From: an uncultured Bacillota bacterium
GTDB taxonomy: Bacteria > Bacillota_I > Bacilli_A > RF39 > UBA660
Direction: 5' to 3'
Length of the DNA stretch: 64,000 nucleotides
NCBI GenBank assembly: GCA_900317975.1
Contig: ONIZ01000001.1
Coordinates: 62,001-126,000, forward strand
Part shown: in pieces, positions 53,637-61,481 of the stretch
How positions within the stretch are numbered: position 1 is the stretch's first letter
How the letters are laid out: every line of letters starts with the position of its first letter
Position numbers and translations under genes: made by a program
The notes under the pieces: model-generated
What the model saw: only the letters and a program-made list of their open reading frames with translations
Told to the model about the DNA's origin: nothing
The model's database searches: none

Positions 53637-53885
53637 ATGAAGACACTTGAAGGCTATATAAATGAAATGCATATTGAAGATAATATATTGAAGAGAATAT
53701 ATTTTCATACTTGTATAGAATTCAAACTGCCACATAATCTTTATCCTTATATAGTTGAAAGCAATGGAAAGTTTGAGCAATTAGGCCCAAGACTAGTTTG
53801 TCAATATATAGACATGAATCTTAAAGAAGTATGTTTTGACAATAGTCTATTAGATGAAGAAACATATTGGGACAATTTAATATAA
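53637..53885 (+). CDS. Leader-bearing small protein before nrdD
   Basis: 82 residues. Leader MKTLEGYINE, cut site I-N-E|M. The mature part contains an aromatic/His segment (YFHTCIEFKLPHNLYPYIVE) and an acidic C-terminus. No family recognised. It lies far from the main array, directly upstream of the first nrdD piece. Leader-bearing genes are thus dispersed and not confined to one locus. Confidence 0.68.
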   Translation: MKTLEGYINEMHIEDNILKRIYFHTCIEFKLPHNLYPYIVESNGKFEQLGPRLVCQYIDMNLKEVCFDNSLLDEETYWDNLI

Positions 53886-53911: not shown

Positions 53912-54712
53912 ATGAAAGTAATCAAACGTGATGGCACTCCTCAGGAATATTCGTTCATAAAGATTGCAGATGCTATAAGTAAAGCATTTGAATCAGTTGG
54001 ACAGGATGTTCCTGAAAAGTTTTTAGAACAAGTGAAAGACTCAGTTGAAAAGCTAATAATCAAAAACAATGGTCAAGGAACACCAATTGAAGAAATTCAA
54101 GATGTCATACAAAAGGAATTGATAAAAAGAAACAAATATGAAGTTGTAGAAGCATTCATAAACTATAGAAGAAAACGTGAAGAGATTCGTGAGCAGAAGA
54201 CCGACTTAATGAAGCAAATTCAGGAAAAACTTTCTGCAAGTAATGTCCAAAATCAGAACGCCAATCTAGATGAAGCTTCATTTGGCGGAAGACTTGGAGA
54301 GACTGCAGGAGCTGTTGCCAAGAATCTTGCATTGAAGAAAATGTCAAAACAGTCACGAAAGAATCATGATGACAATATGATATATGAGCATGATCTAGAC
54401 CATTTTATGACAGGAGACCATAATTGCTTAAGTATTCCATTTGATAAGTTATTAGCGGAAGGATTTAAGACAAGACAGACAGATGTTAGACCCGCTGGTT
54501 CAGTAAATACCGCAATGCAATTAGTAGCAGTAATTTTCCAATTACAAAGTCTTCAACAGTTTGGTGGTGTAGGTGCAACTCATATTGACTGGACAATGGT
54601 ACCTTATGTAAGAAAATCATTTATGAAACATTTTAAAGAAGGACTGAAATATTGTGAAGGAAAGACTGATGAAGAAATTGAAAAGATAATTAATGATATA
54701 TTAAAAGATTAA
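53912..54712 (+). CDS. nrdD: Anaerobic ribonucleotide reductase NrdD, N-terminal piece
   Basis: 266 residues from the ATG at 53912. An ATP-cone domain (V-I-K-R-D-G-T-P-Q-E-Y-S, residues 2-90) gives allosteric control. Then comes the start of the reductase barrel: N-L-D-E-A-S-F-G-G-R, Y-E-H-D-L-D-H-F, and G-D-H-N-C-L, whose Cys corresponds to the conserved disulfide-forming Cys (C79 of T4 NrdD). It stops after M-V-P-Y-V-R-K-S-F-M-K-H-F-K-E-G-L and a short acidic tail, where intact NrdD would run on. The remainder is encoded at 56537 and 57648. The enzyme makes dNTPs without oxygen, pointing to an anaerobic host. Confidence 0.86.
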   Translation: MKVIKRDGTPQEYSFIKIADAISKAFESVGQDVPEKFLEQVKDSVEKLIIKNNGQGTPIEEIQDVIQKELIKRNKYEVVEAFINYRRKREEIREQKTDLMKQIQEKLSASNVQNQNANLDEASFGGRLGETAGAVAKNLALKKMSKQSRKNHDDNMIYEHDLDHFMTGDHNCLSIPFDKLLAEGFKTRQTDVRPAGSVNTAMQLVAVIFQLQSLQQFGGVGATHIDWTMVPYVRKSFMKHFKEGLKYCEGKTDEEIEKIINDILKD

Positions 54713-54713
54713 T

Positions 54714-54869
54714 ATGAAAAGATATAAGATACATTATAGAAAGAATAGTTTAGAAAATTGGACTGAATATGATAATGTAGTATATGAAGACTATTGTCTG
54801 GCTTATTATGTTATGAGAGATATTCAAGAGCAGTTTTCTAATTATTGTTTTGAAATATATGAAATATAA
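54714..54869 (+). CDS. Small hypothetical protein in the nrdD insertion
   Basis: 51 residues, starting one base after the stop of the first nrdD piece. Tyr/Glu-rich and compact (YKIHYRKNSLENWTEYDNVV), probably alpha/beta. There is no leader and no known motif. It is the first of three genes separating the first two nrdD pieces. Confidence 0.55.
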   Translation: MKRYKIHYRKNSLENWTEYDNVVYEDYCLAYYVMRDIQEQFSNYCFEIYEI

Positions 54870-54887
54870 AAAAAAAATATATTATAT

Positions 54888-55124
54888 ATGAAAAGCTTTA
54901 AAAAATATATTAAAATAAATGAATCGGTCAAACCAGAAAATGGAAAAGACTGGGAAGTATATCTTGATGGTTCTTTAGACAATACTTTTACCGAATGGGC
55001 TAAGAAATGGAAGAAATATCCAAAAATAGGTAAAGGATGGTATGCCGGAGGAACTGTATTCAAGGTAGTAAAGATAGAAGACAATAAAGTATATGTTGAA
55101 GAAGATAAAAACTGCAAACCATAA
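54888..55124 (+). CDS. Leader-like small protein in the nrdD insertion
   Basis: 78 residues. The N-terminus MKSFKKYIKINES resembles the packaging leader with two extra residues; the cut site would be I-N-E|S. The mature part has an acidic/aromatic domain (WEVYLDGSLDNTFTEWAKKW) and a basic C-terminal strand pair. Its presence between nrdD pieces suggests that cargo genes can move along with the homing-endonuclease insertion. Confidence 0.62.
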   Translation: MKSFKKYIKINESVKPENGKDWEVYLDGSLDNTFTEWAKKWKKYPKIGKGWYAGGTVFKVVKIEDNKVYVEEDKNCKP

Positions 55125-55173
55125 AAATTTATAAAAAATAATGTGAAAATAAGTTGATTTCCAAAGCAAAAAT

Positions 55174-55192
55174 GATTATTTTTAATTATAAA
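55174..55192 (+). promoter_or_regulatory. Candidate promoter for the homing endonuclease
   Basis: GATTATTTTTAATTATAAA, 17 bases before the start codon. It gives the endonuclease, and nrdD piece 2 after it, an independent promoter. Confidence 0.45.
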
Positions 55193-55209
55193 AATATGAA
55201 TTATAAAAT

Positions 55210-56526
55210 ATGTTAAAAGAAGAAATATTAACTATATTTAAACAAAAAAATATAATATCTTCAAATAATAAAAAACATTTTTGTTGGAAGAAATATTGGG
55301 ATTTGGAAGCAGAACAAATATTTAATGAGTTTAAACAAAATTATAGAACTGATAAAGAAGCATGGTTTTGTCTTTTACATAATATTGAACCATACCATTG
55401 TGAGATATGTGGTGAATTAGCAAAATTTACAGGAAATATAAAATCTAAAATTATTGGATATAATACAACATGTGAAAATCATTCTCCAAATCAAGTTAAA
55501 AATAAATTAGAAAAATTTTCACAAACAATTAGTAATCATACTGATAATGATAGAAAAAAAATATTAGAAAAACGCAAAAAAACTAATTTAGAAAAATATG
55601 GAGATGAAAACTATACTTTATTTGGATCTGATAGTTTTAAGCAAACTTTAAAAGAAAAATATGGAAATGAACATTATAATAATAGAGAAAAATTTAAAGA
55701 AACATGTTTAGAAAAATATGGAGTTACATGCAATTTATCATTAAATTCTTCAGAAAGAAATAAAAAAATATGGGATGAAAAATATGATAAAATCATTAAT
55801 AAAATTAAACAAACAAATTTAGCTAATTTAGGAGTAGAATTTATAGGACAATCTAAAGAAATAATTGATAAAATTGTTAATACTAAAAAGAATAATGTTT
55901 TAAATATAGAAAAAACTTATAATTGTACTCAACAACGAAAATTATTTCAAAAATATGGGCAGGGGTGGAAATCTTTACATTTAGATAAAATTATTATACA
56001 TGGTAGAAAATTTATATCAAATGAATATATTCCGCTAATAGAAAAATATTTTAATGAATGTCATCATACAAATCAATTTACGTCTAAAGGAGAAAAAGAA
56101 CTATTAAAATATATAAAATCAATATATTCAGGTATTGTACTAGAAAATGTTACAAATATAGTTGCAAACAATAATTATAGATATTATGAATTAGATATAT
56201 ATTTACCTGAAAAAAATATAGCATTTGAATTTAATGGTATATATTGGCATTCAATAAATTATAAAGATAAATTTTATCATCAAAGAAAAACATTATTATG
56301 TTATGCTCAAAATGTACAATTAATACATATATGGGAAAATGAATGGTTAAATAAGCAAGATCAAATAAAACAACAAATAAAAGAATTACTAAATGGTCAA
56401 GATTGTTCAAAATATAATTGGATATCTGTTAATGATTATTCTAATTATATTTTATCTGAACCAGAAGAAATACATGTAGGAAATTTAACAATATTTAATG
56501 AAGGAAAATTTATTAAAAATATATAA
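55210..56526 (+). CDS. Homing endonuclease with Vsr-like (EDxHD-type) C-terminal domain
   Basis: 438 residues. The N-terminus has Cys pairs (C-E-I-C near residues 63-66, and C-E-N-H) that may bind zinc. The middle is a series of E-K-Y-G-x-x-x-x modules (about 130-185) like those of phage homing endonucleases, for DNA contact. The C-terminal domain has Y-Y-E-L-D-I-Y, F-E-F-N-G and W-H-S (about 323-345) and H-I-W-E-N-E-W (near 372), the pattern of a Vsr/PD-(D/E)xK-related nuclease. The DNA is distinctly more AT-rich than nrdD, indicating later arrival. It sits exactly between two nrdD pieces. Confidence 0.78.
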   Translation: MLKEEILTIFKQKNIISSNNKKHFCWKKYWDLEAEQIFNEFKQNYRTDKEAWFCLLHNIEPYHCEICGELAKFTGNIKSKIIGYNTTCENHSPNQVKNKLEKFSQTISNHTDNDRKKILEKRKKTNLEKYGDENYTLFGSDSFKQTLKEKYGNEHYNNREKFKETCLEKYGVTCNLSLNSSERNKKIWDEKYDKIINKIKQTNLANLGVEFIGQSKEIIDKIVNTKKNNVLNIEKTYNCTQQRKLFQKYGQGWKSLHLDKIIIHGRKFISNEYIPLIEKYFNECHHTNQFTSKGEKELLKYIKSIYSGIVLENVTNIVANNNYRYYELDIYLPEKNIAFEFNGIYWHSINYKDKFYHQRKTLLCYAQNVQLIHIWENEWLNKQDQIKQQIKELLNGQDCSKYNWISVNDYSNYILSEPEEIHVGNLTIFNEGKFIKNI

Positions 56527-56536
56527 AGTAAAATAT

Positions 56537-57438
56537 ATGAATGTAACAGATATTGAAATTACAGATTCCAAGTATAAACAATATAAAAATGCTTGGAATT
56601 ATGCTATGGATATGACTGAAAAAGAAATCCATCAAGCAGTTGAAGGAATGTATCACAACTTAAATACTTTGCAGTTGAATAAAAAATTTAATATGGCTGC
56701 CTAACTATATAATACATAAATAGTTATGAAAAAATGAGCAAAATCGGTAGCAGTTGGAATTAAGTTTCCGAGAGATAAGGTTAAATAACGAATAAGCTGC
56801 AGAAGAAAACCTAAGGTCCAAACATATATTTGGATAGCTGGTAATACCGAGGTAAATTTATAGATTACGAAAGGCTATAAATCACCGTAGAGCGTAGGAA
56901 ATGAATAAATATAATTTTCCCAAGAGTGCTCATCATCTTAGTTATTAAAAGATGAAAATGTACGCCGAACTTATGGAGAAATTACATAAGAAGTTAAGAT
57001 AAAAAGCTTAGCGATAACAAATTTGCAAGGAGTGGGAATCAGCTCCCGTTCACCAGTATCAATTATGGAACCTGTCCATTAGAAGCTGGACGTATGGTTA
57101 CTAAAGCATTGTTAGAAGTATCTATGGAGGGATTAGGCAATAATGGAGTAACATCAATTTTTCCATGTGGAATCTTCCAATATAAGAAAGGAATTAATGA
57201 CAAACCCGGAACACCAAACTATGACTTAAAGAGACTAGCATTAAAATCAACATCAATGAGAATATATCCAAATTATTGTAACGCTGACTGGACAAATAAT
57301 GCTAATGCACTAAAACAAGACAGAAAACAAAAGCAAGAATATATTGATTCATTGTCTGAAAAAGAATACGCAAAACTAGTGGAAGTTTTAGAACAAAATC
57401 CTAATGTTGCAGAAAAACTTGGATTAGAATTAGAATAA
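56537..57438 (+). CDS. nrdD: NrdD middle piece, interrupted by a group I intron (join 56537-56675 and 57026-57438)
   Basis: Spliced product is 183 residues. The 5' exon ends N-T-L-Q plus the first base of a Ser codon; the 3' exon supplies the rest and continues R-S-G-N-Q-L-P-F-T-S-I-N-Y-G-T, the conserved NrdD block. It then has G-I-F-Q-Y-K-K-G, P-N-Y-D-L and R-I-Y-P-N-Y, and ends in an acidic helix (SEKEYAKLVEVLEQNPN) before a stop. Without splicing, translation ends at 56704 inside the intron. The ATG at 56537 (MNVTDIEITDSK) starts 10 bases after the endonuclease stop. This piece must associate with two others to form the active barrel. Confidence 0.85.
56676..57025 (+). ncRNA. Group I self-splicing intron in nrdD
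   Basis: 350 nt, no ORF. Boundaries are set by restoring the NrdD frame. The 5' exon ends GCAGT; P1 pairs exon GCAGU with intron GCUGC (56696-56700), giving a U-G wobble exactly at the splice site. The intron ends in G (AAATTTG at 57019-57025), the terminal guanosine required by group I introns. A strong hairpin CTTATG/CATAAG (56970-56990) and another, TCATCTT/AAGATGA (56930-56953), fit the 3' core region. T4 nrdD carries a group I intron in the same gene. The full P3-P8 core has not been folded. Confidence 0.85.
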
Positions 57439-57461
57439 TGATTAATGAATAATATTACAAT

Positions 57462-57635
57462 ATGAAAACAACAGATAAAAATTTGCATATAATAGCAAAA
57501 AGAATATCTTATAAAGTAAATGAAGAAGACATAAAGACAATTATTCCTATTATTATGCCATATAGTTTACATACAATTGGAATTATGACTTTAGGAAACT
57601 ATAATGATGACAAAAAATACAAAAGAAATATATAA
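57462..57635 (+). CDS. Small hypothetical protein between nrdD pieces 2 and 3
   Basis: 57 residues, with a basic N-terminus (MKTTDKNLHIIAKRISYKV) and a hydrophobic middle (TIIPIIMPYSLHTIGIM). It is the only gene in the second split of nrdD. It is not long enough for a homing endonuclease and shows no such motif, so it may be a remnant or an unrelated passenger. It starts 23 bases after piece 2 and ends 12 bases before piece 3. Confidence 0.5.
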   Translation: MKTTDKNLHIIAKRISYKVNEEDIKTIIPIIMPYSLHTIGIMTLGNYNDDKKYKRNI

Positions 57636-57647
57636 AGACATAAAGAT

Positions 57648-58814
57648 ATGAAGAAAATCAAAGTTAGTTTAGAAGAACGACCTATTGAATTATTTAACAC
57701 TATGGGGTGCCGCACGGTCAATTTATTAGATATAAATGCATTAGATAATTTCAAACAAAATATACAAAATGTCATTAATGGAGAATTCAACAAGATTGAT
57801 GATGTTTTCTCCGCTATTCAGAAAGATGGACGTGGAAATATATGCCCAGTAACTATCATATTACCTACTCTTGCTGCAATGACAAGAAGAAAACTTGAAA
57901 AGAAAGAACAGTTTGACAATAAAGAACTAGTATGGGAAGAATTCATGAAGTTAGTAGACAAGAAAATACATGAAGCAAAAGACATGTTATTAGAAAGATT
58001 CAACCATATCTGTTCACAATCACCAAAGTCTGCAAGATTTATGTATGAAAATAATACAATGTCGGGGTATCATAAAAATGAAGGAATCATATCAGCATTG
58101 AAGCATGGAACACTTGTAATAGGTCAAATCGGTATGTCTGAAACTTTATATCTTTTGTTTGGATTTGATCATACTACAGAAAAGGGAATGGAATATGCAA
58201 AACAGATTGAACAACTTTGGTTAGACAGAACATCAGAATTTAAGAAAGAATATAAACTAAACTTTGGAGTCTATTATACACCAGCAGAGAATCTTTGCTT
58301 CACTTCATTCAACAAATTTAGAAAAGCATTTCCTGAATATGACTTAGAAGGTGTCACTTATTTTGTTGATTCTAATGGAGAAAAGAACTACAAAAAATAT
58401 TTCACTAATTCTATTCATGTACCAGTATATTATAATTGCGATGTATTCAATAAGATTGATATAGAAAGTCAACTCACAGGTTATTCAAACGCCGGGTGCA
58501 TCACTTATGTAGAGTTAGACAGTACATGCTATAATAATATAGATGCTATTGAAAAGATTGTTGACTATGCTATGGATAAAGACATTCCTTACTTTGCATT
58601 GAACATACCATTGAACAGATGTGCAGAATGCGGTGAGCCTATCTATGATGAAGCATTGACAGAATGTCCAAAATGTGGTTGTGACAAGATAACAAGGCTT
58701 GGACGAATAACTGGCTATCTTTCTACAACTGTGGAACATTTCAATAAAGGAAAGCAAAAAGAATTCAAAGATAGAGTTGATCATATAGGACAAAGTATAT
58801 TTAGTGATTGTTGA
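57648..58814 (+). CDS. nrdD: NrdD C-terminal piece with radical site
   Basis: 388 residues. It opens with E-E-R-P-I-E-L-F, then N-T-M-G-C-R-T, whose Cys is the predicted thiyl-radical Cys (C290 of T4 NrdD). Y-Y-T-P-A-E-N-L-C-F and H-V-P-V-Y-Y-N are conserved substrate-barrel segments. A zinc site is formed by C-A-E-C and C-P-K-C near the end. The glycyl-radical glycine is G356 in R-I-T-G-Y-L, followed by H-F-N-K-G-K-Q-K-E-F. With piece 1 (partner Cys) and piece 2 (barrel centre), the active site is spread over three polypeptides. NrdG at 60996 would install the radical. Confidence 0.88.
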   Translation: MKKIKVSLEERPIELFNTMGCRTVNLLDINALDNFKQNIQNVINGEFNKIDDVFSAIQKDGRGNICPVTIILPTLAAMTRRKLEKKEQFDNKELVWEEFMKLVDKKIHEAKDMLLERFNHICSQSPKSARFMYENNTMSGYHKNEGIISALKHGTLVIGQIGMSETLYLLFGFDHTTEKGMEYAKQIEQLWLDRTSEFKKEYKLNFGVYYTPAENLCFTSFNKFRKAFPEYDLEGVTYFVDSNGEKNYKKYFTNSIHVPVYYNCDVFNKIDIESQLTGYSNAGCITYVELDSTCYNNIDAIEKIVDYAMDKDIPYFALNIPLNRCAECGEPIYDEALTECPKCGCDKITRLGRITGYLSTTVEHFNKGKQKEFKDRVDHIGQSIFSDC

Positions 58815-60989: not shown

Positions 60990-60995
60990 GTGAAT

Positions 60996-61481
60996 ATGCT
61001 TAGAATTGTAGACATAACTGCTCCAGACATCAATAATGGAAATGGTATTAGAGTGACCTTATGGGTTGCGGGTTGTAAACATCATTGCAAAGGCTGTCAT
61101 AATCCTTGGACATGGAACTTTGATCAGGGAAAGTCTTGGTATTATGAAAAAGAATATATAAAGAAAAAATTGTCAGAATGGCTTTCGAAAGACTATGTTG
61201 AAGGTTTGACATTATCTGGAGGAGACCCATTATGCCAAGATATAGCAGGATTGCATGAGATAGTTGAAATTATTGGTTGGGTGCGAGAAACATTCCCTAC
61301 AAAAACTATCTGGCTTTATACTGGATATGTATATGAAGATCTTACTGATCTTAAAAAAGAAATTGCTAATTCAGTTGATGTATTAGTTGATGGTCCTTAT
61401 GTAGAAGAACTAAGAGACATTGCTCATACACCATTCAGAGGAAGCACAAACCAAAGACTTATTTATATGAAAGAAAAATAA
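60996..61481 (+). CDS. nrdG: Anaerobic ribonucleotide reductase activating protein NrdG
   Basis: 161 residues from the ATG at 60996; a GTG two codons upstream is an alternative. The radical-SAM cluster motif is C27-K-H-H-C31-K-G-C34, the CxxxCxxC form. V-T-L-W-V-A-G-C precedes it and L-T-L-S-G-G-D-P-L follows (SAM-binding GGxP-type motif). NrdG uses a 4Fe-4S cluster and S-adenosylmethionine to make the glycyl radical on NrdD. An AGAGG stretch just before the start is one of the few ribosome-binding-like sites here. It is separated from nrdD by about 2 kb. Confidence 0.9.
   Translation: MLRIVDITAPDINNGNGIRVTLWVAGCKHHCKGCHNPWTWNFDQGKSWYYEKEYIKKKLSEWLSKDYVEGLTLSGGDPLCQDIAGLHEIVEIIGWVRETFPTKTIWLYTGYVYEDLTDLKKEIANSVDVLVDGPYVEELRDIAHTPFRGSTNQRLIYMKEK

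Follow-up and report, generated by a model that had tools for sequence, protein, structure and literature searches.

We analysed a window of 64,000 nucleotides (nt), positions 62001-126000 of a phage contig of 410,106 bp (C82) in a 1.9-Mb bin, in which the gene for NrdD, the class III ribonucleotide reductase (RNR) subunit, lies in parts between positions 53912 and 58814. In our best reading of the sequence this giant-phage nrdD has three interruptions, not two: two true splits, which divide the gene into three pieces (p1, p2 and p3), and one group I-like intron inside p2. We consider it likely that the pieces are translated as three separate polypeptides, which would assemble non-covalently into one NrdD subunit activated by NrdG. 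A first-pass annotation of the window had proposed three polypeptides with the catalytic residues on different chains; this is still the best reading, except that the gap within the middle piece is, almost certainly, an intron that is spliced out. Removal of gaps by splicing was one of the findings that the annotation itself named as speaking against its proposal, and for this one gap it very probably applies.

All features described here are on the forward strand. The first piece, p1 (53912..54712, 266 residues), was assigned with Pfam and contains the ATP cone (PF03477, E-value 6.9e-20), the first active-site Cys (54425-54427) and the N-terminal part of the barrel (N-part of NRDD, PF13597, E-value 1.7e-26). 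Its C-terminal tail, TDEEIEKIINDILKD, directly followed by the stop, has the same end and stop position in the phage loci L166, L170 and L179. The second piece, p2, consists of exon 1 (56537..56675), which starts at the ATG 56537, and exon 2 (57026..57438), which was placed by its profile match and the exon junction, carries the Cys of FPCGIF at 57166-57168 and ends with the stop at 57436-57438 after LGLELE. The p2 start, M(N/K)VTDIEITDSKYKQY, is common to the window, L166 and L170. The third piece, p3 (57648..58814, 388 residues), begins with MKKIKVS, matches the C-part of the Pfam NRDD family (E-value 2.1e-71) and holds the thiyl Cys (TMGCRT, 57708-57710), the zinc Cys at 58620, 58629, 58665 and 58674, and the glycyl-radical Gly (RITGY, 58713-58715). 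The catalytic roles of these Cys and Gly are presumably those of their counterparts in T4 NrdD, after which we assigned them. The active-site Cys, the zinc Cys tetrad and the Gly are all kept in the window, and their columns are conserved in an alignment of relatives.

On the NRDD profile of 562 positions, p1 covers 2-141, p2 151-254 (the barrel centre) and p3 244-562; in the Pfam domain scan the matches span 2-140 for p1 and 254-562 for p3. The close relatives L007 (856 residues) and L065 (869 residues) have nrdD as an uninterrupted single frame. The coordinates and the distribution of catalytic elements over the pieces given by the first-pass annotation are thereby confirmed, and the hidden Markov model E-values, together with an identical layout of breaks among other phages, speak against a chance result. 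Its statement that each piece has its own ATG and stop holds for the starts at 56537 and 57648 but not for the middle piece as one open reading frame (ORF), as the intron at 56676-57025 had been missed.

For a survey of the breaks, nrdD loci were gathered by five protein scans, of which four covered viral contigs and one covered genome contigs; two further scans were aimed at the endonuclease, and one copy of the window from one of these is included in the locus set. Merging identical signatures reduced 252 loci to 203, among which near-duplicates may remain. An interruption was flagged in 73 of the 203 loci, and the splits were assigned by hand-checking these. Split 1, between p1 and p2, is found in four loci (window, L166, L170, L179), and split 2, between p2 and p3, in 13 (window, L248, L256, L014, L081, L174, L267, L198, L214, L271, L184, L173, L264); both occur together in the window phage only. 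None of ten further loci is split at site 2, one of the ten (L352) being on a contig already counted. On a FastTree phylogeny of 189 stitched proteins, split 1 requires two changes and split 2 twelve, gains and losses included.

The splits and the introns fall at different kinds of position. When conservation is scored in 11-residue windows over 55 rows, the sites read as introns are at the 72nd-100th percentile and the two split positions at the 0th-24th; the blast edges flanking split 2, which are distinct from the split itself, are at the 80th and 47th. To place the breaks on a structure, an AlphaFold2 model of the intact relative L007 was built from 60 rows (mean predicted local distance difference test score 90.4, predicted template modelling score 0.86). 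The model of L007 has the NrdD fold: among solved structures it is closest to 8p23, the NrdD of Prevotella copri (E-value 2.9e-43, template modelling scores 0.71/0.85), which is also matched by sequence (E-value 2.8e-87). Split 2 corresponds to residue 463/464, the turn of a beta-hairpin between strands 460-463 and 466-469, and split 1 to a variable segment between a helix ending at 247 and a helix starting at 296. Because the breaks fall in a turn and a variable segment, no conserved secondary-structure element is lost, in line with the earlier proposal that they lie in loops.

Split 1 separates the p1 stop at 54712 from the p2 start at 56537, and the 1824-nt gap is filled by small ORFs and a homing endonuclease gene. 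A 51-residue ORF (54714..54869) has no family in the domain scan. It is followed by a 78-residue ORF (54888..55124) with homologues in the corresponding position of L166 (76%) and L170 (80%), a ratio of nonsynonymous to synonymous substitution rates (dN/dS) of 0.11-0.21 and no second copy in the bin. Next comes the free-standing homing endonuclease gene (55210..56526, 438 residues; PHROG 3339, E-value 1.9e-44), and in L179 this site is occupied by a full-length homologue of it (38%). The four loci share the p1 end and the p2 start and differ in what lies between them, two having an endonuclease and two other ORFs without a recognised one. The p1 tail is a TDEEIE-like helix in all four, a motif absent from 56 of 56 readable intact proteins, and a pattern scan for the split-1 start of p2 matched only the contigs of the window, L166 and L170. 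The sequence of split 1 has no sign of an intron. Near the split, identity between the window and L007 is 39% (residues 231-262) and 46% (residues 290-320), compared with 78% and 91% in the stretches either side; for the same flanks, the best matches among other lineages reach 69% and 82%. The diverged flanks would fit co-conversion as the endonuclease homed, which is known from T4 introns (PMC2988022). Just 5' of p1, an 82-residue ORF (53637-53885) resembles, by eye, an internally deleted version of the 326-residue ORF in split 1 of L166.

At split 2, p2 stops at 57438 and p3 starts at 57648, leaving a gap of 209 nt that contains a 57-residue ORF (57462..57635) with no family in the domain scan and no other copy in the bin. 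There is no endonuclease at split 2 of the window, while other loci have HNH-like, GIY-YIG-like and other endonuclease-like ORFs there (identified by eye), or unrelated ORFs in the case of L256. Six loci (L248, L014, L174, L184, L173, L264) are split without any insert. In L014, which has no endonuclease, p2 and the HNH-like protein of L267 end in the same residues, at least eight of them (YENEKNKN), so that this tail is likely the scar of an endonuclease gene deletion after which the split was retained. Of the 13 loci, 11, L248 among them, have TAA as the p2 stop and L173 has TGA; in the remaining one, L174, the stop was read by eye as TAA. The new termini carry opposite charges: the last six residues of p2 are negative in 10 of the 13 loci (mean -1.8) and the first six of p3 positive in 12 of 13 (mean +2.4). 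Taken over 111 other frames from 12 split loci, the corresponding means are -0.24 (tails) and +0.41 (heads), with resampling p values of 0.0004 and 0/20,000 that overstate the evidence, as the 13 loci are partly related and not independent events.

The third interruption is of another nature. A 350-nt insert without an ORF (56676..57025) interrupts the Ser codon in NTLQ-S-RSGNQ, and with U(56675) joined to C(57026) the consensus NTLQSRSGNQ is recovered exactly. The p2 frame from 56537 closes at 56704, within the insert, and the second exon runs from 57026. The last base of the 5' exon is U, the last base of the intron is G, and the exons rejoin in frame; a possible P1, in which GCAGU of the exon could pair with GGCUGC of the intron, was found by eye. 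A homologous intron is present in L248, and RNAalifold on the two sequences gave 95 consensus pairs with 9 compensatory changes, 3 one-sided and 0 broken, figures that come from two sequences only, with 91% mean column identity and a structure fitted to this pair including its exon flanks. The intron is absent from nrdD of L166, L170, L007 and L065, has no second copy in the bin, and returned nothing when it and the L248 intron were run with nhmmer against the fetched loci. No convincing P3/P7 pairing emerged when the intron core was searched by hand. From its junctions and pairing, we conclude that the gap 56676-57025 is almost certainly a spliced group I-like intron. The internal ATG at 57094 was also considered as the p2 start and rejected, as it scores at the 34th percentile of internal ATGs.

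If one gap is spliced, all of them, splits 1 and 2 included, might be removed from the mRNA to give a single NrdD chain. Such a course finds some backing in the flagged interruptions of so many nrdD genes of these phages, in the intron of the window itself and in the partly spliced nrdD of the Jug phages (PMC12363816). However, the splits sit where the loops are least conserved, which is not so for the intron sites, their intervals are packed with ORFs whose contents are unrelated between phages, and some relatives leave no room for an intron: only 24 nt separate the first p2 stop from the p3 start in L248, and in L014 the two genes overlap. The intron reading was thus rejected for splits 1 and 2 and holds for the p2 gap alone; splicing into one chain is unlikely.

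The pieces appear to be maintained by selection. Between the window and L166, dN/dS is 0.09 for p1, 0.17 for p2 (0.16 with the corrected p2 junction) and 0.14 for p3; other pairs give 0.13 for p3 (window-L170), and 0.10 for p3 and 0.14 for p2 exon 2 (window-L248, where L248 also has split 2), at dS values that are already 0.9-1.7 in these pairs and saturated in others. These ratios indicate that all three pieces are under purifying selection. The start contexts were scored against 311 internal ATGs. With 56537 at the 99th and 57648 at the 100th percentile, and both close to the median for 38 other starts, p2 and p3 seem to begin at genuine start codons. For p1 the score is lower, at the 92nd percentile of internal ATGs and at the 18th when ranked among true starts.

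Another reading is a decaying nrdD, with the activity supplied by the host or another nrdD. An NRDD-family search of the bin gave five matches: the three fragments on the phage contig and one intact gene on each of the contigs C80 (L001) and C85 (L002). The two intact genes would allow for decay, and they are distantly related to the phage gene (26-30% identical to the window over the p1 match). On the 410-kb phage contig itself the search found no intact nrdD and no further nrdD match, the pieces are open with their catalytic residues kept, dN/dS between split phages is 0.09-0.17, and nrdG is intact. The second intact gene that the first-pass annotation had named as a danger to its proposal thus exists on other contigs only, beside phage pieces that are not decaying, and we regard decay as quite improbable.

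Translational bypassing has a precedent in T4 gene 60, and readthrough or frameshifting might also join pieces. Here, however, the gaps of 1824 and 209 nt hold complete ORFs, and the pieces have their own starts. The stops of p1 and p2 in the window are both TAA, and the conserved stretches have no in-frame stop (read in L006 and L165). Joining of the pieces during translation is therefore very hard to credit. An assembly artefact might be suspected in a bin with 7% contamination, but the same split positions are present in the other contigs L166, L170, L179, L248 and L256, which makes it extremely improbable. The same sequence is also found as a 410-kb viral contig in IMG/VR (L006), a copy that gives no independent evidence against an artefact, as it may stem from this assembly too.

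In the mechanism that we propose, split 1 would probably have arisen by insertion of a homing endonuclease gene, other phages being split at that site without an endonuclease. The group I-like intron would be removed from p2 before translation, p1, p2 and p3 would be translated separately and combine into a non-covalent NrdD, and NrdG would activate the assembled enzyme at the glycyl radical of p3. As split 2 cuts the hairpin at its turn, the end of p2 and the start of p3 would be its two strands and could pair in trans. We lean, by a little, towards a three-chain NrdD in which p3 is docked on p2 via this trans-completed beta-hairpin, the turn having been cut repeatedly and the split outlasting the endonuclease with the help of the oppositely charged termini.

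In addition to the relatedness of the split-2 loci and the high dS, several points weigh against a three-chain enzyme. We infer splicing, translation, assembly and activity from what was observed directly, namely the layout, the relatives, the conservation, the RNA covariation and the break positions on the model of a relative. This model is a single chain of L007, not a complex of the window pieces. The window split 2 is absent from its nearest relatives, L166 and L170, and the 189-protein tree does not tell whether split 2 was re-fused in these two or arose separately in the window and in L248. Finally, the intron drew no group I hit from Rfam at E-values up to 1 or up to 10; its group I model may be insensitive here, because nine other interrupted nrdD loci gave no match either.

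Split RNR genes are known from other phages. In the Aeromonas phage Aeh1, insertion of mobE left NrdA as two chains, NrdA-a and NrdA-b, which are active, according to PMC2988022, PMC3653736 and PMC3267527. At split 1 the gene for a large RNR subunit appears to have been broken as in Aeh1, by a free-standing homing endonuclease gene and with no sign of an intron. Unlike Aeh1, the window encodes a class III glycyl-radical enzyme, probably in three chains, with an extra intron, and cuts at the same loops recur across many lineages, often with no endonuclease present.

The claim that a three-way split would be new is not supported, given three published reports. Aeromonas phage phiAS4 has nrdD as three broken coding regions (PMC3653736), the same number as in the window, where, unlike what is given for phiAS4, there are ORF inserts and break points common to other phages. 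UAB_Phi87 likewise has an nrdD split by an endonuclease gene, into 399 and 284 residues, with one break only (PMC4837284). In the Jug huge gut phages, also with nrdD in several fragments, the gene is fragmented in 95 of 104 genomes, one of them with four fragments and one junction without splicing evidence; the available text of PMC12363816 contains no description of break positions or persistence. T4 nrdD (sunY) contains a group I intron (PMC2988022), a likeness to the window, whose intron differs in having no ORF and in being one of three interruptions. Our literature search, with most subscription papers beyond its reach, found no report of a functional multi-chain NrdD. Fragmented phage nrdD is thus already published, and what is newer is the repeated split at the hairpin.

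The intact, split with endonuclease, split without endonuclease and doubly split genes form a natural series for how a gene broken by mobile elements becomes a stable multi-subunit enzyme. The series also asks whether a glycyl-radical enzyme tolerates its radical loop and its first active-site Cys on separate chains. For the annotation of fragmented phage genes it suggests a rule, in which breaks in conserved blocks are introns and breaks in variable loops with good starts are real splits.

Downstream of p3, nrdG (60990..61481) encodes the radical S-adenosylmethionine activating enzyme (Pfam Fer4_12, E-value 2.6e-42; PHROG 626, E-value 4.7e-50). The contig carries genes for a tail sheath, a head maturation protease and a major head protein and is therefore a phage with a contractile tail. 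Its completeness is unproven because it has no exact terminal overlap of 16-400 nt.

Some further observations concern the surveyed loci. ORFs inserted at the splits of L166 (5077-6057), L170 (10975-11976) and L256 (5861-6247) contain, by eye, HExxH-like motifs (HELLH, HEFEH, HELEH) and may encode small phage proteins resembling metallopeptidases. Within the blast matches of split loci, the in-frame stops are five TAG in L214, two TAG in L256, TGA and TAA in L174 and one TAA at the match edge in L081, that of L248 being the split itself; such counts are unreliable in loci with recoded stops. Several relatives seem to use recoded stops, as suggested by the five TAG in L214 nrdD and the TGA at a Trp position in L174, and many others have stops where Gln is conserved. 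In L303, L175, L030 and L247 the nrdD frames of 1015-1110 residues are open through an extra internal stretch, possibly an intein or a read-through intron ORF. Overall, nrdD appears as an insertion hot spot in these phages, with interruptions recurring at about eight conserved sites.

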